Assembly: GCF_019890615.1 (NCBI RefSeq)
Contig: NZ_JAINVZ010000012.1
Coordinates: forward strand, 124,001 to 188,000
Direction of reading: 5' to 3'
Origin: Streptantibioticus parmotrematis
GTDB taxonomy: Bacteria > Actinomycetota > Actinomycetes > Streptomycetales > Streptomycetaceae
DNA: 64,000 bases
Below the pieces are notes generated by a model. The model worked only from the letters and a program-made list of their open reading frames with translations. It was not told the origin of the DNA and made no database searches. The first letter of the stretch is position 1. Every line of letters starts with the position of its first letter. This document shows positions 4,177 through 61,065 of the stretch, piece by piece. The translations under genes and the position numbers were made by a program.

Positions 4177-5754
4177 ATGGCTCCCGTTGACCCCTCTCTC
4201 ATCGAAGGCTTAGGGACCGCTCAGCCACGATTCCTACCGTCTCGGTTCATGTTCTTCACCTACCTCAGGCGCGAATTGCGCCGCCGCCGGAAGGCGGCTC
4301 TGGTCGTCTCGATGGGCCTCGCTCTCGGTATCGGGCTCGTCCTCACGGTGACCTCCGTCTCCGCGGGGATGAAGAACGCCCAGTCCCAGGTGCTGCATTC
4401 GCTCTACGGCCTCGGCACGGACGTCACCGTGACCAAGCAGGCCGCGTCCGGGCAGGACGGCGGCGGCCAGAAGTTCGGGATCAAGCGGTCCGGCTCCGGC
4501 AGCCAGAGCAGCAGTTCGGACCGGCTCACCATCAGCGCGGGCACCACCACGCTCACCTCCTCCCAGCTCGCCACCATCGCCAAGCAGAACGGCGTCTCGA
4601 CGGCGGTCGGTTCGCTGTCGCTCAACGACTTCAAGTTCAACGGCAGCTTCAAGCTGCAAGGCGGCACCTCGGGTTCCTCGGGCTCGGGTGTCTCCGGTGC
4701 CGGTGCCGGTGCCGGTGGCTTCGGCGGCGGCCAGCGTCCGGGCGGGGCGGGCGGCTCGGGCGGCACGCCGCCGTCCGGTGCGGCCAACTTCAGCCTCAAC
4801 ACCTTCACCATCGACGGCGTCGACACCAGCCACCTCTCGGTGGGCCCGATCAGCAGCCTGGCGATCACCAGCGGCAAGAACTTCACCAGCGCCCAGAGCG
4901 ACTCGGCGGTCGCGGTCGCGGACTCCTCCTACGCCAAGTCGAAGAAGCTGAGCGTGGGCAGCACCGTCACCATCTCCGGCACCAAGTTCACGATCATCGG
5001 CATCGCCACCGCCTCCAGCGGATCGTCCACCGCCAACCTCTACATCCCGCTCACCAAGGCCCAGACGCTGGCCGGCCAGAAGGACAAGGTCACCACCGTC
5101 TACATCAAGGCCACCAGCTCGCAGAAGATCGCGGCGGTCAAGTCGGAGGTGCAGAAGGCGGTTTCCGGCACCACCGTGACCACCGCCTCCGACATGGCGT
5201 CCACCGTCTCCGGTTCGCTGTCCACCGCGGCCAACCTGGCGACCAACCTCGGCAAGTGGCTGTCGATCGTGGTCCTGGCCGCCGCCTTCCTGATCTCCTC
5301 GCTGCTGACCTCCTCCGCGGTCAACCGACGGGTGCGGGAGTTCGGCACCCTCAAGGCACTGGGCTGGCGCAGCAAGCGGGTCATCGGCCAGGTCATGGGT
5401 GAGGCCGTGGTCAACGGCCTGATCGGCGGCGCCCTCGGCATCGCCCTGGGCCTGGCGGGCGCGGAGGCCATCACCGCGTTCTCCCCGAGCCTGAGCGCCT
5501 CCCTCGGCGGTTCCTCCGGCAGCGGCGGCTCGGGCGGCTTCGGCGGCCCCGGCGGCGGTGGCGGTGGCGGTTTCGGCGGCCACGTCGCGCAGGCGGCCCA
5601 CCAGGTCACCGTCCACCTGACCGCCCCGGTCACCCTGGCGTCCATCGGCCTGGCCGTGGCCCTCGCGGTCGCGGGCGGCCTCGTCGCCGGCGGCTTCGGC
5701 GGCTGGCGCGCCTCCCGGCTCCGCCCGGCGGACGCGCTGCGCCGCGTCGAGTAG
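4177..5754 (+). CDS. MacB/FtsX-family ABC transporter permease
   Basis: A 525-residue permease of the FtsX/MacB fold. It has a first membrane helix after a very basic segment (ELRRRRKAALVVSMG), a large extracytoplasmic domain (about residues 60-360) with a Gly-rich loop, and a C-terminal three-helix domain ending in the family signature (KALGWRSKRVIGQ, then GWRASRLRPADALRRVE). The start at ATG 4177 is supported by AAGGAAG 5 nt upstream; homologues often begin at the internal ATG 4249 (MFFTYLRREL), which has no ribosome site here. A second Gly-rich loop sits between the last helices. The ATPase gene follows after 37 bp, giving a two-gene exporter or mechanotransmission unit. Confidence 0.9.
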   Translation: MAPVDPSLIEGLGTAQPRFLPSRFMFFTYLRRELRRRRKAALVVSMGLALGIGLVLTVTSVSAGMKNAQSQVLHSLYGLGTDVTVTKQAASGQDGGGQKFGIKRSGSGSQSSSSDRLTISAGTTTLTSSQLATIAKQNGVSTAVGSLSLNDFKFNGSFKLQGGTSGSSGSGVSGAGAGAGGFGGGQRPGGAGGSGGTPPSGAANFSLNTFTIDGVDTSHLSVGPISSLAITSGKNFTSAQSDSAVAVADSSYAKSKKLSVGSTVTISGTKFTIIGIATASSGSSTANLYIPLTKAQTLAGQKDKVTTVYIKATSSQKIAAVKSEVQKAVSGTTVTTASDMASTVSGSLSTAANLATNLGKWLSIVVLAAAFLISSLLTSSAVNRRVREFGTLKALGWRSKRVIGQVMGEAVVNGLIGGALGIALGLAGAEAITAFSPSLSASLGGSSGSGGSGGFGGPGGGGGGGFGGHVAQAAHQVTVHLTAPVTLASIGLAVALAVAGGLVAGGFGGWRASRLRPADALRRVE

Positions 5755-28500: not shown

Positions 28501-28521
28501 CCATGAATGGAGGAGGAACCG

Positions 28522-29349
28522 ATGAACGAGGAGCCGGTAGAGCCGTCAGCCGCCCCGCCAAGCCCCGCTGCATACTTCGGCAGGGAGGCGCGCGCCCTCC
28601 GGACTGCTCTGGGCATGTCTCAAGGCGAGTTCGCCAGCGCGCTGCACTATCAACAGTCTGCGATCAGCAAGGTGGAGAGCGGTAGTCTCTTTGCCTCTTT
28701 GAAGTTCGCAGAAGCGTTAGACCGTGTAGCCGGGACACCGGGCGTGTATGTGCGCCTTCGCGAGAGGCTAGCCACCGAGGGACATCCCGACTGGTTCGTG
28801 CCGTACCTGGAGTTGGAGCGGCACGCAACGAGCATCCTGGACTTCTCAACAACCGTGATCATGGGGATACTTCAGACCCCGGAATACGCAACGGCGGTTT
28901 TCCAGGCCGGACACCCACGAGAGGGCACAGACCTCATCAAGGGGCGGGTGGAGCTACGACTAGCACGCCGCGAGGTCATGGATCGAGAAAATCCACCACT
29001 GTTGTGGGTGATTCTCGGTGAAGCGGTACTCAGAACGAAAGTGGGCGGGCCGGGTGTCATGGAGGACCAGCTAGACCACCTGCTAATGATGGCTGAATCG
29101 CCGAACGTCACCCTTCAGGTCTTGCCGTTCAAGGACGGTGCTCCAGCGGCGGCCGAGAGCTTCACCGTTCTGACCTTTGGGAAGCGAGCCCCGATCGGGT
29201 ACGCCGATACTCCGATCGCTGGCCAGACCGTAGACGCTCCGGACACAGTGGCTAGCCTGATGGCTACGTACGATCAACTGCGCGCGACGGCCGCAAGTCC
29301 AGCCAAGTCGCTGGACATGATCAGAACCGCTAAGGAGTTCAAGCCATGA
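28522..29349 (+). CDS. XRE-family regulator with DUF5753
   Basis: 275 residues: an N-terminal HTH (about 20-75: REARALRTALGMSQGEFASA ... ISKVESG) and a DUF5753 domain (about 95-265: YLELERHATSILDFSTTVIM, GILQTPEYATAVF, LQVLPFKDGA). ATG 28522 has GGAGGAA upstream; ATG 28507 lies inside that ribosome site. It overlaps the DUF397 gene (ATGA). XRE/DUF397 pairs are abundant in Streptomyces and act in developmental control or toxin-antitoxin-like regulation. Confidence 0.92.
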   Translation: MNEEPVEPSAAPPSPAAYFGREARALRTALGMSQGEFASALHYQQSAISKVESGSLFASLKFAEALDRVAGTPGVYVRLRERLATEGHPDWFVPYLELERHATSILDFSTTVIMGILQTPEYATAVFQAGHPREGTDLIKGRVELRLARREVMDRENPPLLWVILGEAVLRTKVGGPGVMEDQLDHLLMMAESPNVTLQVLPFKDGAPAAAESFTVLTFGKRAPIGYADTPIAGQTVDAPDTVASLMATYDQLRATAASPAKSLDMIRTAKEFKP

Positions 29350-29567
29350 GTGTCCCGTTCGACCGCTCTGCCGCGCGCTGGGAGAGGTCCAGTTACAGCA
29401 ACGCCAACGGCGGTCAGTGCGTCGAGTTCGCCCGAACCTTTGCAAGCGATGGCGTGATCCCTGTCCGGGACAGCAAGGACCCGCACGGGCCTGCCTTGAC
29501 CTTCTCCCCGGCCGCGTGGAGCGCGTTCACGGACGCGGTGAAGCGTGGGGAGCTTCCCGCCGTATAG
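29346..29567 (+). CDS. DUF397 protein
   Basis: 73 residues typical of DUF397: [45 protein letters not shown]. It probably binds the upstream XRE protein as partner or antagonist. Four-bp start/stop overlap with the XRE gene. It is the last gene before attR. Confidence 0.93.
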
Positions 29568-34870: not shown

Positions 34871-35063
34871 ACCCGCCCCCGGCGACCTCTCGTTTCAGGC
34901 AATGAATCGGGAAAGACCCGCGTCCGGTCCCGAAACCATGCAGACAAACGTATGTGTGAATCTTTAGTGTTCCCGGCGTACTTGCTGTGAAGGCGGCGCC
35001 GGCGGCCGGACTCCCGCCCGGACGCGCCCACACGCTCATTCGCACCTGGGGGGATCAACCCGT

Positions 35064-38581: not shown

Positions 38582-39769
38582 CTACACCCGCCAGCGTTCC
38601 CCCTCCGCGGCGTCCAGCCAGGCCCACTCGCCCTCGCGGGTCACCGTCAGGCCGAAGCGGTCCGGATCCGGGCGGCCTGCCGCGTCCCACCACTGCCAGG
38701 CCGCCGCCACCTCGTCCCACAGCCTGCGCGGGCCCGACTGGTGGACGGTGGCCTCCTTCGCGCCGCCCCTGAACAGCACCGCCGCCCAGGAACGGTCGCC
38801 GTCCAGGCCGTACCACCACACGCTGTGGTCCCCGTCCCGTTCGTCCGCCGCCCACGCGCACCGCGGTACCCGCAGTCCCGCCGCGAACGCGAACGCCCCG
38901 AAGCGGTCGGCGAATCCGTCGTCCGCGGTGAGCGTCGTCGTGGTGGCCGTCGCGCCGCCGGGGAAGCCGTCCGGCAGGTACGCCGCGTGCGGCGGCCGCG
39001 TCGTGCGCTGGCTGCGCGCCTTCATGAACTCCACCGCCCGCCGGAAACGCCCGCTCGCGGAGCGGCCGTCGGGCGCGACGGTGAGCACGACGACCGTGTC
39101 GCGGTTGGCGTAGGCCGTCCCCCACGGTGCGACGACCAGCCCGCCGGGCGCGGTCTGCTCGATCCACGCGTACGGGATGCGGCGCATGCCGCAGGTCGCG
39201 ATGGTGCGGTCGTAGGGGGCGGCGGCGGGGTGGCCCAACAGGCCGTCGGCGGTGAGGACTTGGGGGGTCAGGTCGAGGGAGCGCAGGGCGGTGCGGGCGC
39301 GGTCCGCCACGGCGGCGTCCACTTCTACGCTCGTCACGCCACGGCCGCCCAGGCGGTACGCCATCAGGCCCGCCGTCCAGCCCGTCCCTGTGCCGATCTC
39401 CAGCACCCGCATGCCGTCGGCCGGCGCGAGGTCGTCCAGCATCCGGAAGACGACGGAGGGCATGGACGACGACGAGGTGGCGACCCTTCCCGGCGCCGGT
39501 CCTTCGTGCGCGCCGTCGTCCCACTGCGTGGTGATCGGCACGTCGCGGTCGGCGTGGGCGTACCAGGCGTCCGGGTCGGCGCGCCGGTCCACCGTGGTGC
39601 TGGCGCCGGTCGCCATGTCGTACGGCCACATCACGTCGGGCAGGAACGCGGCCCGGTCGACCGCCTCGAAGGCGGGCACCCACTCCTGGCCCAGGGCGCC
39701 CGAGGCGCGCAGGGCGCGGCCCAGCTCCTGCCGGGTGGGCCGCGCTCGCGCCGTGTCGCGCAGGGTCAC
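38582..39769 (-). CDS. PIMT-family O-methyltransferase of peptide cassette 1
   Basis: 395 residues. The N-terminal half is a protein-L-isoaspartate O-methyltransferase-like domain: ATSSSSMPSVVFRML (about 97-111, the PIMT substrate-binding segment), SAM motif I RVLEIGTGTGW (121-131), YDRTIATCGMRRIPYAWIEQ and GGLVVAPWGTAY. A C-terminal extension of about 150 residues (HQSGPRRLWDEVAAAW ... FGLTVTREGEWAWLD) is absent from housekeeping PIMT. GTG 39769 overlaps the stop of the 45-residue peptide (GTGA), arguing that the peptide is its substrate. It is clearly paralogous to 42984-44123. Related enzymes convert Asp to aspartimide in RiPPs; this role is inferred. Confidence 0.88.
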   Translation of the reverse strand: MTLRDTARARPTRQELGRALRASGALGQEWVPAFEAVDRAAFLPDVMWPYDMATGASTTVDRRADPDAWYAHADRDVPITTQWDDGAHEGPAPGRVATSSSSMPSVVFRMLDDLAPADGMRVLEIGTGTGWTAGLMAYRLGGRGVTSVEVDAAVADRARTALRSLDLTPQVLTADGLLGHPAAAPYDRTIATCGMRRIPYAWIEQTAPGGLVVAPWGTAYANRDTVVVLTVAPDGRSASGRFRRAVEFMKARSQRTTRPPHAAYLPDGFPGGATATTTTLTADDGFADRFGAFAFAAGLRVPRCAWAADERDGDHSVWWYGLDGDRSWAAVLFRGGAKEATVHQSGPRRLWDEVAAAWQWWDAAGRPDPDRFGLTVTREGEWAWLDAAEGERWRV

Positions 39770-39903
39770 TTGCGGTGCTTCCCGTCCCCCTCGGGGCTGC
39801 CGCCGTCCGGGCTCGGCGGTTCCTGCGGGGGCTGCCAGGGCTGGCCGGGGAGGCTGTCGCCGCCGTCGCCGCCGTCCGCGTGCGGCCGGATCTCGATCCT
39901 CAT
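39766..39903 (-). CDS. Putative RiPP precursor peptide 1
   Basis: 45 residues: N-terminus MRIEIRPHADGGDGGDS, then LPGQPW, then a tail PPSPDGGSPEGDGKHRK. Both start (ATGA with the 105-residue gene upstream) and stop (GTGA with the methyltransferase) overlap neighbours by 4 bp. The start MRIE, the LPGQPW block and the SPDGGSPxGDGKHRK tail recur in peptide 2 (44120-44272), likewise next to a PIMT-family gene. The tail has Asp-Gly pairs (Asp33, Asp40), the dipeptide most prone to aspartimide formation. No Cys, no signal peptide. Not in any family I can name. Confidence 0.75.
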   Translation of the reverse strand: MRIEIRPHADGGDGGDSLPGQPWQPPQEPPSPDGGSPEGDGKHRK

Positions 39904-40217
39904 GGCGTTCCCTCCTGGGGCTGGGACGGGTGGTCGTGGCTGTCGTCGTGATCGTCTTGGTCGTCGTGATCGTCTTCGTTGCCGGTGCGCGTGATCTCCG
40001 CCCACGCCACCGCCGTGTCCGTCGTGCGCGCGTGTCCGTAGCGGTCGGCGCGACGCAGGGCGTCGACCAGGGCGGTGTGCAGCGGCTCCGGGATCTCGTC
40101 GGGGACGTCGACCTCGACCCGGATGGCGTCCGGGGTCGAGGTGGTGCATGCCTCGGTGCCGGTCGCGGCCGCCAGCAGTGCGGCGACCTCGCGGGCGCGG
40201 GCTTCGGGTGAACGCAC
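39900..40217 (-). CDS. Hypothetical protein with Asp/His-rich tail, cassette 1
   Basis: About 105 residues from GTG 40217 (GGGGA 6 nt upstream; an ATG at 40253 has no ribosome site). The body (EVAALLAAATGTEACTTSTP, VEVDVPDEIPEPLHTALVDA) looks globular; the C-terminus is a run of Asp and His (NEDDHDDQDDHDDSHDH) that could bind metal. It overlaps the peptide gene by 4 bp and is divergent from a GntR gene. No counterpart precedes cassette 2. Function unknown; a peptide-binding or immunity-type partner is conceivable. Confidence 0.65.
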   Translation of the reverse strand: MRSPEARAREVAALLAAATGTEACTTSTPDAIRVEVDVPDEIPEPLHTALVDALRRADRYGHARTTDTAVAWAEITRTGNEDDHDDQDDHDDSHDHPSQPQEGTP

Positions 40218-40259
40218 GCATGTCCCCAGGTGAGACGGTCGGTGATCACGCATCGTAAT

Positions 40260-40273
40260 GCTGCTTAAGCAGC
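40260..40273. promoter_or_regulatory. 14-bp perfect palindrome, GntR operator candidate
   Basis: GCTGCTTAAGCAGC lies in the divergent promoter between the GntR gene (92 bp from its ATG) and peptide cassette 1 (43 bp from its first start). Confidence 0.6.
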
Positions 40274-40364
40274 TTGTACCTGATGCAGTAGCTTTGTCAA
40301 CGGAGCAAAGGCACCCAAGAGCGCACCAACCGGTAGACGGCACACGGCAGTCGGGAGACGGCGG

Positions 40365-41087
40365 ATGGCACGCGAGGCCCCCTACCTCGAAGTCGCCGAG
40401 GCCCTGCGCGCCCGGGTCAGGGGCGGGGAGTGGGCCACCGGCGAACGCCTGCCGTCACGCGCCCGCCTCGCCGAGGAGTACGGCGTCGGACGGAACGTGA
40501 CGCAGCGCGCGGTCGACCTGCTCATCGTCGAAGGCCTGCTGGAGGGCCGGGCGGGCTCCGGCACGTACGTGCGCGAACCGCGCGAGCGCCACCGGATGGT
40601 GCGGACCCGCGGCGAGGGCGGCCCGGGCCCCGGCGCGGCCTGGGAGGTGCACAGCGACGCGCGCGTCCCGGCCCCGGCGGACATCGCGCGCAGGCTCAAG
40701 GTCGCGGAGGGCGACCCGTGCGTACGGACGCGCTACGAGTTCGTCGCCGACCACCAGCCGGTGCACCTGTCGGTGAGCTGGGAGCCGATGGGGCTCACCG
40801 GCGCCACGCCCATCGTGCTGCCGGAACTCGGCCCGATGAAGGGCAAGGGCGTGGTGGCGCGGATGCGCAGCATCGGCGTGGAGATCGCCCGGGCGGTGGA
40901 GATCCCCCGCCCCGCGCGGGCCACCGCGACGGAGGCCGCGTTGCTCGGCATCACCCCCGGTGACCTGTTGCTGCACATCGAGCGCACGTACTACGCGACG
41001 GACGGCCGCCCGGTGGAGACGGCCGACATCACGGTGCCGGACCTGCGGCTGGAGATCGCGTACGAGATCGGTCTCGGGCACGGCTGA
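40365..41087 (+). CDS. GntR/HutC-family regulator
   Basis: 240 residues. GntR winged helix (PYLEVAEALRARVRGGEWAT ... GSGTYV, about 5-68) and UTRA domain (about 90-235: ARRLKVAEGDPCVRTRYEF, SVSWEP, LLHIERTYYATDGRPVE). ATG 40365 has GGGAG upstream. Divergent from peptide cassette 1 with a perfect palindrome between, so it likely controls that cassette and itself. Confidence 0.9.
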   Translation: MAREAPYLEVAEALRARVRGGEWATGERLPSRARLAEEYGVGRNVTQRAVDLLIVEGLLEGRAGSGTYVREPRERHRMVRTRGEGGPGPGAAWEVHSDARVPAPADIARRLKVAEGDPCVRTRYEFVADHQPVHLSVSWEPMGLTGATPIVLPELGPMKGKGVVARMRSIGVEIARAVEIPRPARATATEAALLGITPGDLLLHIERTYYATDGRPVETADITVPDLRLEIAYEIGLGHG

Positions 41088-41255
41088 GGCGGCGTGCCGC
41101 ACGGCGTCCGGCGCTGCCGTTCCGTACCTCGCCCCGGGGACCGTTCCGTACCGCGACGCAACGGCGCTCGACTCGTGACCCCGTCGCCATGGGCGGCGGA
41201 CGCGCGTAGCGCTAAGGTCGAATCCAGGACCAGGAACGATGGGGGATGGCCGTCG

Positions 41256-41507
41256 ATGGCGTCGGACGAGGCTGTGGTCGGTTGCGCGGGGGTGCTGCTC
41301 GTCGGCACCCGCGGGGCCGCCGGGCCCGGTGAGGTGCTGGTGCGGGTCCGGGGCGGATCGGAGGCGTTCCTCGCCTGGTCCGCGGAGCCGCTGCCCAAGG
41401 GAGCGAACGTCCTGGTGGTCGAGTCCCGGGGCACCCGCCAGGTCGACGTCATCGAATGGGCCGATCCGTTGGACGCGTTGGCCGGTGACACCGGCGACGC
41501 TGGTTGA
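41256..41507 (+). CDS. Small NfeD-like protein
   Basis: 83 residues (VVGCAGVLLVGTRGAAGPGE VLVRVRGGSEAF ... ANVLVVESRGTRQVDVIEW): a compact beta-barrel like the soluble OB-fold domain of NfeD proteins, without the usual membrane segments. ATG 41256. It ends 11 bp before the flotillin gene, the partner NfeD proteins usually have. Confidence 0.7.
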   Translation: MASDEAVVGCAGVLLVGTRGAAGPGEVLVRVRGGSEAFLAWSAEPLPKGANVLVVESRGTRQVDVIEWADPLDALAGDTGDAG

Positions 41508-41518
41508 GGAGACGAAGG

Positions 41519-42715
41519 ATGTTCGGTTACCGCGTTCCCGCCCCTGACGAGGCGATGCTGATCTCGGGGGGCAGGCGGGGCCAGGGGGGTGCTCCGTTCC
41601 GGGTGGTGACGGGGCACGGCAAGTTCGTCCTCCCCGTGTTCCGCAAGGTCCGCTTCCTCACCCTCGCGATGTGCGAGGCGGAGGTCTCCGAGAAGTGCGT
41701 GACCAAGCAGGGCATCGCGCTGACGGTGAAGGCCGTGATCGCGTTCAAGGTCGGCAACGACAACGAGAGCATCGTCAACGCCGGTCAGCGCTTCCTGTCC
41801 GACCAGGACCAGATGTCGATCCTGACCGGCCGCATCTTCGCGGGTCACCTGCGCGCGATCATCGGCTCGATGACGGTCGAGGAGATCGTCACCGAACGGC
41901 AGAAGCTCGCCACCGAGGTGCTGGAGACGTCCAAGTCGGAGATGGCCAAGATCGGCCTGATCGTGGACTCGTTGCAGATCCAGTCCATCGACGACGGCGC
42001 CACCGGCTACATCGACGCGATGTCCGCCCCGCACAAGGCGGCCATCCAGCGGCAGGCGCAGATCGCGCAGGCGCAGGCCACCCAGCAGTCGGTGGAGGCG
42101 CAGCAGGAGGCGGCCCGCAACCAGGCCGAGTACGCCCGGCAGACCGCGATCGTGCAGGCGCAGTACAACGCCGAGGTCGACCGCGCGCAGGCGCAGGCCG
42201 CCCAGGCGGGACCGCTGGCGCAGGCGCACGCCCAGCAGGAGGTGCTGGCGGCGCAGACCGAACTGGCCGAGCGCGCGGCCCAGTTGCGGCAGCAGGAGCT
42301 GGTGGCCGAGGTGGTCAAGCCCGCGCAGGCGGAGGCCGAGCGCATCCGGGTGCTGGCGATGGCCGAGGCGGAGCGGATGAAGATCCAGGCGGAGGCCGCC
42401 GCCTCGCACGACCGCGTGGCGCTCGACCGCATGCTGATCGACCAGCTGCCGCAGATCGTCAAGGAGGCGTCGGCGGGCCTGGCCGGCGCGAACGTCAACG
42501 TCCTCAACGGCGCGGACGGCCTGGGCGAGATCGCGGCGGGCCTGGTCGGCCAGGGCCTGACGATCCTGGACTCCGTCCGCCGCAACCTCAGCGGCGCGGA
42601 CGGCGCCTCGTCCTCCCCGGCCCCTGGCGCGCAACTCCAGCGCTACCTGGGCACGGCCAAGACCCGCCCGGAGGACGGCGGTTCCGACGACGACGGCCCG
42701 GTGAACATCCGCTGA
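41519..42715 (+). CDS. SPFH/flotillin family protein
   Basis: 398 residues. SPFH domain (about residues 25-170: FRVVTGHGKFVLPVFRKVRF, LTVKAVIAFKVG, VETERQ-like EEIVTERQKLATEVLE) followed by a long Ala/Gln/Glu-rich coiled coil (about 175-300), and a C-terminal region with NVLNGADGLGEIAAGLVGQG. GAGGAG precedes ATG 41519. Flotillins assemble on the inner membrane and organise microdomains. Paired with the NfeD-like gene; no clear hydrophobic hairpin is seen. Confidence 0.9.
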   Translation: MFGYRVPAPDEAMLISGGRRGQGGAPFRVVTGHGKFVLPVFRKVRFLTLAMCEAEVSEKCVTKQGIALTVKAVIAFKVGNDNESIVNAGQRFLSDQDQMSILTGRIFAGHLRAIIGSMTVEEIVTERQKLATEVLETSKSEMAKIGLIVDSLQIQSIDDGATGYIDAMSAPHKAAIQRQAQIAQAQATQQSVEAQQEAARNQAEYARQTAIVQAQYNAEVDRAQAQAAQAGPLAQAHAQQEVLAAQTELAERAAQLRQQELVAEVVKPAQAEAERIRVLAMAEAERMKIQAEAAASHDRVALDRMLIDQLPQIVKEASAGLAGANVNVLNGADGLGEIAAGLVGQGLTILDSVRRNLSGADGASSSPAPGAQLQRYLGTAKTRPEDGGSDDDGPVNIR

Positions 42716-42734
42716 CGCGCTGACTCGACCCCGT

Positions 42735-42778
42735 CCGAAGGCCCCCGCCACGTCCGCGTGCGTGATGGGGGCCTTCGG
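42735..42778 (+). terminator. Terminator after flotillin gene
   Basis: Perfect 12-bp stem CCGAAGGCCCCC/GGGGGCCTTCGG with a 20-nt loop. Confidence 0.85.
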
Positions 42779-42891
42779 CTTGGGCGAACGTGTGACGCCC
42801 GTCAGGCGCTCGACGCGGCGCCGATCGGCCGGGCGCCTGAGACGTCGGCCCCGTGATCGCGCTCCTCGTCGCCCCGGATGCCTTGCCCCGT

Positions 42892-42967
42892 GAATCGCTT
42901 GTCACGCCCTTGTCGGCGACAAGGGATTGTCAACTCTGGGTTGTTGCCGGAGACAAGGGTGTGACAA
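42892..42967. repeat. 76-bp hairpin direct repeat, copy 1
   Basis: Matches copy 2 (45397-45472) at 65 of 76 positions in the same orientation. Outer arms CTTGTCACGCCCTTGTC and GACAAGGGTGTGACAAG pair at 16 of 17 positions. It lies between the convergent flotillin and methyltransferase 2 genes. Confidence 0.9.
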
Positions 42968-42983
42968 GTGATCGCCGGAGCGG

Positions 42984-44123
42984 TCAGACGGTCCAGGCGT
43001 CGGCGGCGTCCCCGAGCCAGGCCGACTGGCCGTCGGGGGTGACGGTGAGTCCGAAGTGATGCGGCTCCGGAGAGCCCTCCCGTTCCCACCAGTCGAGGAC
43101 GCCCAGCACCTCGTCCCACAGACGACGCGACCCCGACTGCCGTACCAGCGGCGCGCCCTCCTCCGGAAACTCCGCCAGGGTCCAGGACGTCGAGTCCATG
43201 TCGAAGAGCCAGACGCGGTGCCCGTTGACGACTTGGGCGCAGCGTGGCATCCGCAGCCCGCACGCGAACCGCTGCGCGAGGCCTGCCAGTTCACCAAGCG
43301 TGGCGTCGGTCCCGCGGACGGCGGGAATCGACTCGTAGTGGTCCGGGACGTGGCCGGAGAACCGTTCCCAGTCGAGACGCTGGCCGCGCAGCGTCATGAA
43401 CTCGACCGCCCGCAGGAACGGACCCGACGCCGTGCCGTCCTCGCTCACCGTCAGGCGGACCAGGGCCTCCTGGTTGCTGTAGTGGGTGCCCCAGGGAGCG
43501 AGGACGACCCCGCCGGGCCGGGTCTGCTCCACCCACGCGTACGGCACGCGCCGCACGCCCGCTGTGGCGATCACGCGGTCGAACGGGGCGCGGTCGCGGT
43601 GTCCCGCCGCACCGTCGCCGCAGATCACTTCCGGCCGCCATCCGGCCCTGCCCAGCGCGGTGCGCGCGGTGGCGGCCACCTGGGCGTCGACCTCGACGGT
43701 GACGACGTTCGCGTCGCCGAGACGGGCACACAGGAGCCCGGCGTTCCAGCCCGTCCCGGTGCCGATCTCCAGTACGCGCGCGCCGTCCACGACGTCGAGG
43801 TCCCGGAGCATGCTCAGCACCACGGAGGGCATGGACGCCGAACTGGTGGCGAGTTTCCCGGCCGCAGGCCCGGTGTGCCGGCCGTCGTCCCATTGCGTGA
43901 CGATCGGAGCGTCGCGGTGGGCGGCACGAGTCCAGGCCGCCAAGTCGGCGCGTCGGTCGTGGAGTTCGGTTGCCTGCGTCTCTATGTCCCAGACCCACAT
44001 CCGTTCGGGCAGGAACGCCGCACGCGGCACGGCGGCGAAGGGCACGGCCCAGTCCGACGTCATGTCACCGCGATCGAGGAGGTACCGCCCCAGCTGCTCG
44101 CCGGGGCGGTCGGTGTCGGTCAC
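42984..44123 (-). CDS. PIMT-family O-methyltransferase of peptide cassette 2
   Basis: 379 residues, collinear with the cassette 1 enzyme: ATSSASMPSVVLSML (92-106), SAM motif ARVLEIGTGTGW (115-126), FDRVIATAGVRRVPYAWVEQ, GGVVLAPWGTHY, and the same C-terminal extension (RQSGSRRLWDEVLGVLDWWE ... FGLTVTPDGQSAWL). GTG 44123 overlaps the stop of peptide 2 (GTGA). The two enzymes are obvious paralogues, with divergence highest at the N-terminus, which might reflect recognition of different peptide leaders. Confidence 0.88.
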   Translation of the reverse strand: MTDTDRPGEQLGRYLLDRGDMTSDWAVPFAAVPRAAFLPERMWVWDIETQATELHDRRADLAAWTRAAHRDAPIVTQWDDGRHTGPAAGKLATSSASMPSVVLSMLRDLDVVDGARVLEIGTGTGWNAGLLCARLGDANVVTVEVDAQVAATARTALGRAGWRPEVICGDGAAGHRDRAPFDRVIATAGVRRVPYAWVEQTRPGGVVLAPWGTHYSNQEALVRLTVSEDGTASGPFLRAVEFMTLRGQRLDWERFSGHVPDHYESIPAVRGTDATLGELAGLAQRFACGLRMPRCAQVVNGHRVWLFDMDSTSWTLAEFPEEGAPLVRQSGSRRLWDEVLGVLDWWEREGSPEPHHFGLTVTPDGQSAWLGDAADAWTV

Positions 44124-44272
44124 TTGCGGTGCTTCCCATCGCCCTGTGGGCTGCCACCGTCCGGCGACGGAGGCTGCGGAGTCCACGGTTGCCCGGGCAA
44201 CTTGTCCTTCTCCTCGTCACCTAGCGCGACCGCGCTGCCGGTGTGCGTGTGGTTGATCGCTTCGATTCGCAT
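44120..44272 (-). CDS. Putative RiPP precursor peptide 2
   Basis: 50 residues: MRIEAINHTHTGSAVALGDE, a short charged stretch, then KLPGQPWTPQ and tail PPSPDGGSPQGDGKHRK. GAAGGGG precedes ATG 44272 and the stop overlaps the methyltransferase. The first four residues, the LPGQPW block and the tail are shared with peptide 1, while the segment between is unrelated, the reverse of the usual conserved leader with variable core. Asp38 and Asp45, each followed by Gly, are candidate aspartimide sites. Confidence 0.75.
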   Translation of the reverse strand: MRIEAINHTHTGSAVALGDEEKDKLPGQPWTPQPPSPDGGSPQGDGKHRK

Positions 44273-58749: not shown

Positions 58750-61065
58750 GTGTCTCTCGCTCTGTACCGCCGCTACCGTCCCGAGTCCTTCGCCGAGGTC
58801 ATCGGGCAGGAGCACGTCACCGACCCGTTGTCGCAGGCGCTGCGCAACAACCGGGTCAACCACGCGTACCTGTTCAGCGGTCCGCGCGGCTGCGGCAAGA
58901 CGACCAGCGCGCGGATCCTCGCCCGGTGCCTGAACTGCGAGCAGGGGCCGACGCCGACGCCGTGCGGCGAGTGCCGTTCCTGCCGCGACCTGGCGCGCAA
59001 CGGGCCGGGCTCGATCGACGTCATCGAGATCGACGCCGCGTCGCACGGCGGCGTGGACGACGCGCGCGACCTGCGGGAGAAGGCCTTCTTCGGGCCCGCC
59101 TCCAGCCGGTACAAGATCTACATCATCGACGAGGCCCACATGGTCACCTCGGCGGGCTTCAACGCCCTGCTGAAGGTGGTCGAGGAGCCCCCGGAGCACC
59201 TGAAGTTCATCTTCGCGACCACCGAGCCGGAGAAGGTCATCGGCACGATCCGGTCGCGCACCCACCACTACCCGTTCCGCCTGGTCCCGCCGGGCACGCT
59301 CCGCGACTACCTGGCCGAGGTCTGCGGCCGGGAGGACATCGCGGTCGAGAACGGCGTGTACCCGCTGGTGGTCCGGGCCGGCGCGGGCTCGGTCCGTGAC
59401 TCGATGTCGGTGATGGACCAGCTGCTCGCGGGCGCGGGCGAGTCCGGCGTGACGTACGCGATGGCCACCGCGCTGCTCGGCTACACCGACGCCGCGCTGC
59501 TGGACGACGTGGTGGACGCCTTCGCGGCGGGCGACGGCGCGGCGGCCTTCGAGATCGTCGACCGCGTCATCGAGGGCGGCCACGACCCGCGCCGGTTCGT
59601 CGCCGACCTGCTGGAGAGGCTGCGCGACCTGGTCATCCTGGCCGCCGTCCCGGACGCGGGCGAGAAGGGGCTGATAGACGCACCGGCCGACGTGGTCGAG
59701 CGGATGGCGGCGCAGGCCTCGGTCTTCGGCGCCGCCGAGCTGAGCCGTGCGGCGGACCTGGTCAATACCGGGCTGACCGAGATGCGCGGAGCCACCTCCC
59801 CGCGCCTCCAGCTGGAGCTGATCTGCGCCCGCGTGCTGCTGCCCGCCGCCTACGACGACGAACGCGCCGTCGCCGCCCGGCTGGACCGGCTGGAGCGGCA
59901 GGCGCTCGCGGGGGGACTCGCGGCGCCCGCGGGTTATGCGCCCCAGCCGGACGGCGGCGTGCAGGTGACCGGTGCGGTGGACGGCTCCGCGGTGGCCCGG
60001 GCGGCGGTGCGGCCCGGGCAGGGCGGTCCGGGCCAGGCGCCCGCGCCCACCACGCCTCTGGCCCCCGCCCCGGCCCCGGCCCCTGCCGCGCCCGCGGCTC
60101 CGGCTCCGGTGCCCGACCCCCCGGCCGCGCCTTCTGCTCCGGCTCCGGCGTCCCCCGCCCAGGCGGCTCCGGCGACCGGTGACGCACCGGCCGCTCCCGC
60201 CGCCCGGGTCCCCGGGGCCTGGCCGACCGCCGCGCGGCCCGGGTCCGGGGGAGCCCCGCCCGCGCCGGGGGCCTGGCCCACCGCCGCCCCGCCGCAGTCG
60301 TCCCCGGCGGCCCCTGCTCCCGCGGCGCCCGCGCAGGCCCCCGCCCCCGCACCGGCCGCGCCTTCGCAGGCGCCCGCTCCGAGCGGTTCCGGTTCCGGTT
60401 CCGGTTCCAAGGCTGTCGCGGGCGATCCGTCCCGGGTGCGCCAGATGTGGCCCGACATCCTTGAGGCGGTCAAGAACCGCCGCCGCTTCACCTGGATCCT
60501 GCTGAGCCAGAACGCGCAGGTCGTCGGCTTCGACGGGACGACGCTCCAGCTCGGGTTCGCCAACCCGGGTGCCCGCGACAGCTTCGTCAGCGGCGGCAGC
60601 GAGGACGTCCTGCGTCAGGCGGTCAACGACCTGCTGCACGTCGAGTGGAAGATCGAGGCGCTGGTCGACCCGTCCGGTGGCGGGGGAGGGGGAGCGCAGG
60701 GCGGTTTCGGCCCGCCCGGGTCCTCCGGGCCGCAGGGCGGCGGCTTCCCCGGTCCGTCCCGTCCGTCCGCCGGAGCGCCGTCCGGCGCGGCCCCGTCCGC
60801 CCCCTTCGCGCCCCCGGCGCATTCTGGCCAGGGCGGTCCAGGCGGGCAGGCCCGTGGACCGCAGCAGCCGCAGCAGCCGTCGTCCGGGCCCGAGCCGTCG
60901 CGCGGCGCCGCGCCGTCCGCGCCGGAGCCGCCCCCGGTCGTCTCGGTCGAGGACGACATCCCGGAGGACGACGACCCCGACCTCGACGACACCGCGCTCA
61001 CCGGCCACGACCTGATCGTCCGCGAGCTCGGCGCCACGGTGATCGAGGAGATCGTCAACGAGTGA
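58750..61065 (+). CDS. dnaX: DNA polymerase III subunit gamma/tau
   Basis: 771 residues. Clamp-loader ATPase: LALYRRYRPESFAEVIGQEH, Walker A GPRGCGKT (44-51), zinc Cys cluster (CLNC ... CGECRSC), Walker B YIIDEAHM, sensor FATTEPEKV. A Pro/Ala/Gly-rich linker (about 410-555) leads to a tau-like C-terminal domain (VRQMWPDILEAVKNRRRFTW ILLSQ). GTG 58750 is chosen by homology; an in-frame ATG at 58720 would add ten residues. First gene of a replication/repair block with ybaB and recR, as in many bacteria. Confidence 0.97.
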   Translation: MSLALYRRYRPESFAEVIGQEHVTDPLSQALRNNRVNHAYLFSGPRGCGKTTSARILARCLNCEQGPTPTPCGECRSCRDLARNGPGSIDVIEIDAASHGGVDDARDLREKAFFGPASSRYKIYIIDEAHMVTSAGFNALLKVVEEPPEHLKFIFATTEPEKVIGTIRSRTHHYPFRLVPPGTLRDYLAEVCGREDIAVENGVYPLVVRAGAGSVRDSMSVMDQLLAGAGESGVTYAMATALLGYTDAALLDDVVDAFAAGDGAAAFEIVDRVIEGGHDPRRFVADLLERLRDLVILAAVPDAGEKGLIDAPADVVERMAAQASVFGAAELSRAADLVNTGLTEMRGATSPRLQLELICARVLLPAAYDDERAVAARLDRLERQALAGGLAAPAGYAPQPDGGVQVTGAVDGSAVARAAVRPGQGGPGQAPAPTTPLAPAPAPAPAAPAAPAPVPDPPAAPSAPAPASPAQAAPATGDAPAAPAARVPGAWPTAARPGSGGAPPAPGAWPTAAPPQSSPAAPAPAAPAQAPAPAPAAPSQAPAPSGSGSGSGSKAVAGDPSRVRQMWPDILEAVKNRRRFTWILLSQNAQVVGFDGTTLQLGFANPGARDSFVSGGSEDVLRQAVNDLLHVEWKIEALVDPSGGGGGGAQGGFGPPGSSGPQGGGFPGPSRPSAGAPSGAAPSAPFAPPAHSGQGGPGGQARGPQQPQQPSSGPEPSRGAAPSAPEPPPVVSVEDDIPEDDDPDLDDTALTGHDLIVRELGATVIEEIVNE

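Follow-up and report, generated by a model that had tools for sequence, protein, structure and literature searches.

Two candidate imiditide cassettes in Streptantibioticus parmotrematis and the regulator genes that neighbour their family

A 64,000-nucleotide stretch of the Streptantibioticus parmotrematis genome (RefSeq assembly GCF_019890615.1, contig NZ_JAINVZ010000012.1, positions 124,001 to 188,000; hereafter the window, with positions counted from its first nucleotide) carries two small genes, each joined to the gene of a methyltransferase of the protein isoaspartyl methyltransferase (PIMT) family. Are these pairs cassettes for imiditides, which are aspartimide-bearing ribosomally synthesised and post-translationally modified peptides (RiPPs), and, if so, which aspartate is modified, how did the pair arise and which regulators accompany it? 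The gene pairing, the enzyme family, the conservation of both, the selection acting on peptide 2 and the lack of a graspetide synthetase nearby make it very probable that the window holds two imiditide (type I pamtide) cassettes; the chemistry, the site and the recognition proposed below would follow characterised imiditides by analogy.

Gene pairing, enzyme family and conservation

The two cassettes comprise four genes:

38582..39769, minus strand: peptide aspartyl methyltransferase (PAMT) 1 of the PIMT family, 395 aa; WDAAGRP (WXXXGXP) in the C-terminal part; GTGA overlap with peptide 1
39766..39903, minus strand: precursor peptide 1 (45 aa), with Asp33 of SPDG as the proposed site of modification; similar precursors lie upstream at 74 of 80 related loci
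42984..44123, minus strand: PAMT 2, 379 aa, with C-terminal WEREGSP (WXXXGXP)
44120..44272, minus strand: precursor peptide 2 (50 aa), with Asp38 of SPDG as the proposed site of modification

Both pairs were found where the first-pass annotation of this DNA had placed them, and the GTGA overlaps that it described were confirmed: the TGA stop of each peptide open reading frame (ORF) shares GTGA with the GTG start of its methyltransferase ORF. The cassettes are spaced 3.1 kb apart. Peptide 1 is MRIEIRPHADGGDGGDSLPGQPWQPPQEPPSPDGGSPEGDGKHRK (45 aa; 20% Gly, 20% Pro and 11% Asp) and peptide 2, which is less rich in these residues, is MRIEAINHTHTGSAVALGDEEKDKLPGQPWTPQPPSPDGGSPQGDGKHRK (50 aa; 14% Gly, 14% Pro and 8% Asp). 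Both end in a basic KHRK and have one early Glu.

Imiditides were described in 2023 by Cao et al. (as cited in PMC13001092), and type I pamtides, reported in the same year, are the same class (PMC10787088). The latter source counts 1183 non-redundant precursors and 1539 non-redundant PAMTs in the two-gene clusters of both pamtide types, and gives type I pamtide precursors as about 45 aa long, with 17.3% Gly, 16.8% Pro and 10.2% Asp and with acidic and basic residues that are conserved at the two termini. The composition of peptide 1 fits this description closely. The window cassettes are two-gene units with an extended, WXXXGXP-bearing PAMT, a Gly/Pro/Asp-rich precursor of about 45 aa and no ATP-grasp gene in the cluster, as the earlier assignment to an imiditide-type locus, made from the extended PIMT, the GTGA coupling and the small-ORF pairing, would have it.

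Like the imiditide pairs NmaA-NmaM and SpaA-SpaM, the window cassettes combine a two-gene layout, a short Gly/Pro/Asp-rich precursor, an extended PIMT with WXXXGXP, a conserved Asp and a basic C-terminus. They differ from these in that there are two distinct cassettes and a third elsewhere in the genome, in the possible coupled ORF upstream of peptide 1, and in having a GntR and not an XRE gene beside cassette 1; such differences concern where the cassettes sit and not what kind they are. The class is already known and the window pair represents additional members of it. Its interest lies in the set-up of two enzymes with near-identical peptide tails and in the regulator link described below.

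Other aspartimide systems were compared in the same way. Graspimiditides have a methyltransferase of the same family, but there an ATP-grasp ligase lies beside the precursor and the PIMT gene, and the window cassettes have no ATP-grasp match within 79 kb on the contig; the nearest TIGR04187 match is a fragment at that distance, and on the opposite side the stretch of about 41 kb from cassette 2 to the contig end has none. Cysimiditides and type II pamtides share the pairing of a precursor with a PAMT, but neither window peptide contains cysteine or the CxxCxGxG...CxxCxGxG zinc motif of cysimiditide precursors. No lanthipeptide, lasso or azole enzyme was found among the 10 neighbouring ORFs scanned in Pfam.

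Both methyltransferases matched PF01135 PCMT (E 1.6e-24 for enzyme 1 and 5.2e-25 for enzyme 2) and carry a C-terminal extension of more than 100 aa. The WXXXGXP motif present in each is given for imiditide, lasso and graspetide methyltransferases (PMC13001092). In the AlphaFold model of enzyme 2 (mean predicted local distance difference test score 91.1), the region past approximately residue 250 was predicted with confidence, and the top Foldseek match of the model was the extended Thermotoga PIMT 1DL5 (E 1.1e-19, template modelling scores 0.56/0.66, root-mean-square deviation (rmsd) 6.9). A second structural comparison placed 1DL5 over model residues 7-373 (Z 27.4, rmsd 6.4, 305 residues aligned), whereas the short PIMT structures 2YXE and 1JG1 covered the model up to residue 250 only. 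When sequence alone was compared, the profile match to 1DL5 was confined to the catalytic part (residues 89-214). Consistent with the earlier claim that housekeeping PIMT lacks this extension, the window enzymes share the catalytic fold of Pcm (PDB 3LBF, 1JG1, 2YXE) but have about 130-140 more C-terminal residues and a peptide gene coupled upstream.

Relatives were collected by a contig scan with enzyme 2, and the best 80 of 134 confirmed loci (L038-L117) were analysed. A precursor, scored as a small same-strand ORF directly upstream with a P[DN][GS] core, was present at 74 of these 80 loci, a count that describes close relatives only. In a wider whole-genome set of 37 loci, which extends to PAMTs of graspetide and other types and counts the two of the window, 17 had such a precursor. 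The first-pass annotation would have given up its imiditide-like reading if methyltransferase homologues in most genomes lacked the small ORF; most of the 80 close relatives have it, and the reading was not refuted by this check. A stricter pattern, PGxP[WY]...P[DN]G, occurred at 70 of the 80 methyltransferase loci and in none of the 57 random regions of 11.1 kb; two further matches, at approximately position 60932 of the window (minus strand) and in L106, look accidental. The 74 precursors average 45.6 aa, with 21.9% Gly, 21.7% Pro and 9.5% Asp. Three tail types recur among them (the basic GDGKHRK of the window, PGVPNPPK and a PKVIG-like tail), and they track the enzyme tree (6 changes, against 28.8 on average with shuffled labels; none of 200 shuffles gave so few). 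Two of the 80 loci, L108 and L116, are from Streptomyces sparsogenes, the species of the tested pair SpaA/SpaM; this is a match at species level.

Several observations weigh against the imiditide assignment. The best NCBIfam match of both enzymes was TIGR04188 ('ATP-grasp peptide maturase system methyltransferase'), at 292.2 and 301.9 bits, short of the cut-off of 380 bits. The C-terminal domain of enzyme 1 has an acidic stretch, DERDGD, with nothing similar at the aligned place in enzyme 2, and an acidic loop of that kind is described as important in NmaM (PMC13001092). Matching of tail charge to the C-domain of the enzyme gave no clear signal: the net charge of the domain was -5.6 for tail A (n = 54, standard deviation (SD) 3.1) vs. 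-4.4 for tails B/C (n = 32, SD 2.6), where label A, here and in the enzyme tree, means neither B nor C and so takes in odd tails (L029 and L030, for example). The precursor criterion failed at six of the 80 loci; other small ORFs were present instead in L095 and L103, and L044, L074, L083 and L115 had no small ORF within 240 bases upstream. The small ORF of L011, a locus not among the 80, carries the tail but lacks the core Asp and was not counted as a precursor. Finally, in the L109 precursor, just upstream of the match at 5001, Asn replaces the conserved Asp (SPNG); this residue could form a succinimide through deamidation.

The enzymes of L074, L083 and L115 form one small clade without a precursor seen upstream, and their near relative L098 has one.

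Target aspartate, selection and enzyme specificity

If the window cassettes work as characterised imiditides do, the methyltransferase would bind the linear precursor, probably via the conserved C-terminal stretch, and methylate one aspartate, Asp33 in peptide 1 and Asp38 in peptide 2. The methyl ester would then collapse to an aspartimide, which may hydrolyse to isoaspartate. The first-pass annotation had proposed two targets per peptide, the aspartates of SPDG and of the GDG tail (Asp33 and Asp40; Asp38 and Asp45). Its residue numbers were correct, and of its targets the SPDG aspartates are the likely ones. The core reads PDG in 72 of the 74 precursors, PDS in one and PNG in one (Asp in 73, Asn in one), a conservation that is partly built in because the search criterion asked for D or N there. 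At the G-x-G tail position, Asp was found in 38 precursors, Gly in two, Glu in one and Asn in one, and 32 had no such tail. As the GDG aspartate is absent or altered in 36 of the 74, the modified residues are likely to be Asp33 and Asp38 and not Asp40 and Asp45.

Doubly aspartimidylated peptides, modified at both sites, are improbable. Both sites are Asp-Gly, and the GDG aspartate is retained in 38 of the 74 precursors and, within this genome, in each of the three core precursors, but it is replaced by Gly, Glu or Asn in four and lost with the tail in 32, and the tested type I pamtide carries its modification at the conserved aspartate (PMC10787088).

Codon changes were counted between the window and Streptomyces sp. 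ICBB 8177 (L040), another genome of the genus, represented by one draft assembly. In residues 18-50 of peptide 2 there were 12 synonymous and 0 non-synonymous codon changes, while residues 1-17 had 8 non-synonymous and 0 synonymous changes (Fisher p 8e-6 for the contrast). By this pattern, the first part of peptide 2 resembles a freely varying leader and the remainder a core under constraint. Between peptide 1 and its L040 counterpart there is a gap of one codon, three residues close to the start are replaced, one codon has changed synonymously and the last residue shows a Lys-to-Arg exchange.

Enzyme 1 has been largely lost in L040. Similarity to the window extends for 116 codons (12 synonymous and 7 non-synonymous changes) and is then lost; the alignment picks up again at approximately position 34995 of the window, so that about 4.4 kb of the window is absent there. 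The reading frame of peptide 1 is still open and enzyme 2 is intact (83%). As peptide 1 persists in L040 with most of enzyme 1 gone, enzyme 2 may act on both peptides there; the alternative is that peptide 1 is itself being lost. Cross-modification by either enzyme is also likely in the window, since the two peptide tails are very similar; L040, with its open peptide 1 next to a largely lost enzyme 1, agrees with this. A pair with nearly identical tails, two divergent enzymes and a relative lacking one of them represents a natural system for enzyme-peptide specificity.

At another locus, L073:4621-5000, two precursor-like ORFs with different tail types precede a single methyltransferase gene. 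This arrangement also fits one enzyme with two substrates.

The same comparison bears on whether the methyltransferase might target another cellular protein, with the small ORF as partner or adaptor and not as substrate. Some PAMTs of this clade have been suggested to modify an FHA-domain protein (PMC10787088), and L040 retains peptide 1 without an intact enzyme 1. We consider this explanation very unlikely: SpaA and NmaA are modified by their own enzymes (PMC10787088, PMC13001092), and with enzyme 2 intact in L040, a modifying enzyme is still present there.

That the cassettes are remnants of graspetide (ATP-grasp RiPP) clusters, with only precursor and methyltransferase left, is hardly credible, as TIGR04188 is the best NCBIfam match but stays below its cut-off, the nearest ATP-grasp match is 79 kb off, the peptide-enzyme pair recurs at 74 of the 80 loci and peptide 2 is under protein-level constraint.

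Origin of the pair and other methyltransferases of the genome

The cassettes had been called paralogous, and their kinship stands, but it is distant. The enzymes are 54% identical and fall into two separate supported clades of a quick tree of 113 rows (built without the short rows L006, L018 and L033 and without L001, L002 and L009, the window's own or duplicate rows). Enzyme 1 clusters with the third cassette of the genome (L003) and L020 (support 98), the third cassette being its nearest row (61%), and enzyme 2 clusters with L040, L010, L011, L038, L039 and L071 (support 96). Consequently, a recent tandem duplication was ruled out as the origin of the pair. Gene conversion of the peptide tails was also unsupported: counting the stop, 8 of the last 19 codons differ, 6 of them synonymously.

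The first-pass annotation had regarded both the two cassettes within 6 kb and the conserved C-terminal part of the peptides as unusual. The former holds, as L040 was the only one of the 80 loci with a pair of core precursors that both lie next to a methyltransferase gene or what is left of one; the latter does not, being the rule in the family. In L095, two methyltransferase genes are adjacent. Among the matches listed, PAMT matches paired within about 6 kb in G006, G016 and G018, as judged by coordinates only; the G016 stretch (L129) has one core precursor only.

The genome contains 10 PAMT matches. A genome search with a query from the two peptide tails gave three clear matches, the window's two and one on contig C3, and the next had an E value of at least 0.47. 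Three PAMT genes (C10:3412-5452, C12:387159-389152 and C4:82091-83589) lie beside TIGR04187 ATP-grasp matches and are hence of graspetide type; the C4 gene contains an in-frame stop, and its ATP-grasp match is only partial. The PAMT at C34:283302-284405 (L004) has a different small basic ORF upstream (MGTHGDGKGGAEGDKKQPPRESDGQWPRPIPKK), and this pair is possibly a further imiditide type.

Neighbouring genes and regulators of the family

Three further genes lie beside or between the cassettes:

39900..40253, minus strand: 117-aa ORF that ends in an ATGA overlap with peptide 1; operon 1 may include it as a third gene
40365..41087, plus strand: GntR/UTRA regulator (PF00392, PF07702), divergent from operon 1; 87% in L040
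41504..42715, plus strand: SPFH/Band 7 protein (PF01145), between the cassettes; 98% in L040

The 117-aa ORF, scanned as 39900-40250, had no match in Pfam and, among 117 loci, was confined to that of the window itself and to L040 (78%). The GntR/UTRA protein is a candidate regulator of operon 1, and the SPFH/Band 7 gene is probably unrelated to the cassettes.

Regulator genes were compared more widely. Neighbour profiles were made from the clustered ORFs of the 80 case loci and applied to cases and controls, and the Pfam names of the clusters were checked on representatives (HTH_31 + DUF5753 for XRE, DUF397 and DUF6879). Controls were random regions from 9 whole genomes other than the case genomes (60 drawn, three overlapping ones dropped, n = 57). 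WhiJ-type XRE genes were found at 50 of the 80 case loci vs. 4 of the 57 controls (Fisher p 9e-12); one positive control, L156, holds a PAMT by chance, and without it the control count is 3 of 56. DUF397 neighbours (30/80 vs. 3/57) and DUF6879 neighbours (25/80 vs. 1/57) were also counted. HATPase (AbaA-like) neighbours were not significantly enriched (19/80 vs. 8/57, p 0.19), and they lay upstream in 10 cases vs. downstream in 2.

The XRE genes were located mainly upstream. At the 60 loci with 4.9 kb on both flanks, they were upstream only at 29, downstream only at 2, on both sides at 5 and on neither at 24 (sign test p 5e-7), and 45 of the 80 loci had one within 3 kb upstream. When the enzymes were thinned to 31 (less than 70% identical), 15 retained an XRE or DUF397 neighbour. 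The third cassette of the genome (L118) has XRE/DUF397 neighbours. By contrast, no DUF5753 XRE or DUF397 gene lies within 5 kb of the window's two cassettes, so that the association applies to the family more than to these two; the nearest XRE/DUF397 pair of the window (28507-29564) is 9.0 kb from cassette 1.

WhiJ/BldB-type regulators act in Streptomyces development, and in S. venezuelae a locus of this type controls an inhibitor of sporulation (both as described in PMC10294661). Genes for DUF397 and DUF5753 proteins have been noted with two graspetide groups, including the PIMT-linked group 13 (PMC13097080). For imiditides, no report of an XRE, DUF397 or DUF5753 link was found in the open-access literature searched, where the graspetide link of PMC13097080 was the only one and which did not extend to the discovery paper of Cao et al. 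(2023). It is conceivable, if rather doubtful, that developmental switches of the WhiJ/BldB type have the imiditide genes of this family as their output. The upstream XRE protein would then control the precursor and the methyltransferase, the aspartimidylated peptide would act within the colony, in development or in the control of antibiotics, and not as an exported antibiotic, and the window pair would be copies moved to GntR control. The XRE association thus provides a testable idea for imiditide function, and tying aspartimide RiPPs to biological function is named as the bigger challenge ahead in a 2026 review (PMC13001092).

Two minor observations were made. A recurrent unnamed small protein was encoded at 24 of the 80 case loci vs. 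0 of the 57 controls (L117:4230-4487, for example), the scanned example being without a Pfam match. In the XRE/DUF397 pair of the window, the HTH_31/DUF5753 XRE gene (28507-29346) overlaps the DUF397 gene (29334-29564), both on the plus strand, as is typical of a WhiJ/BldB-type module.

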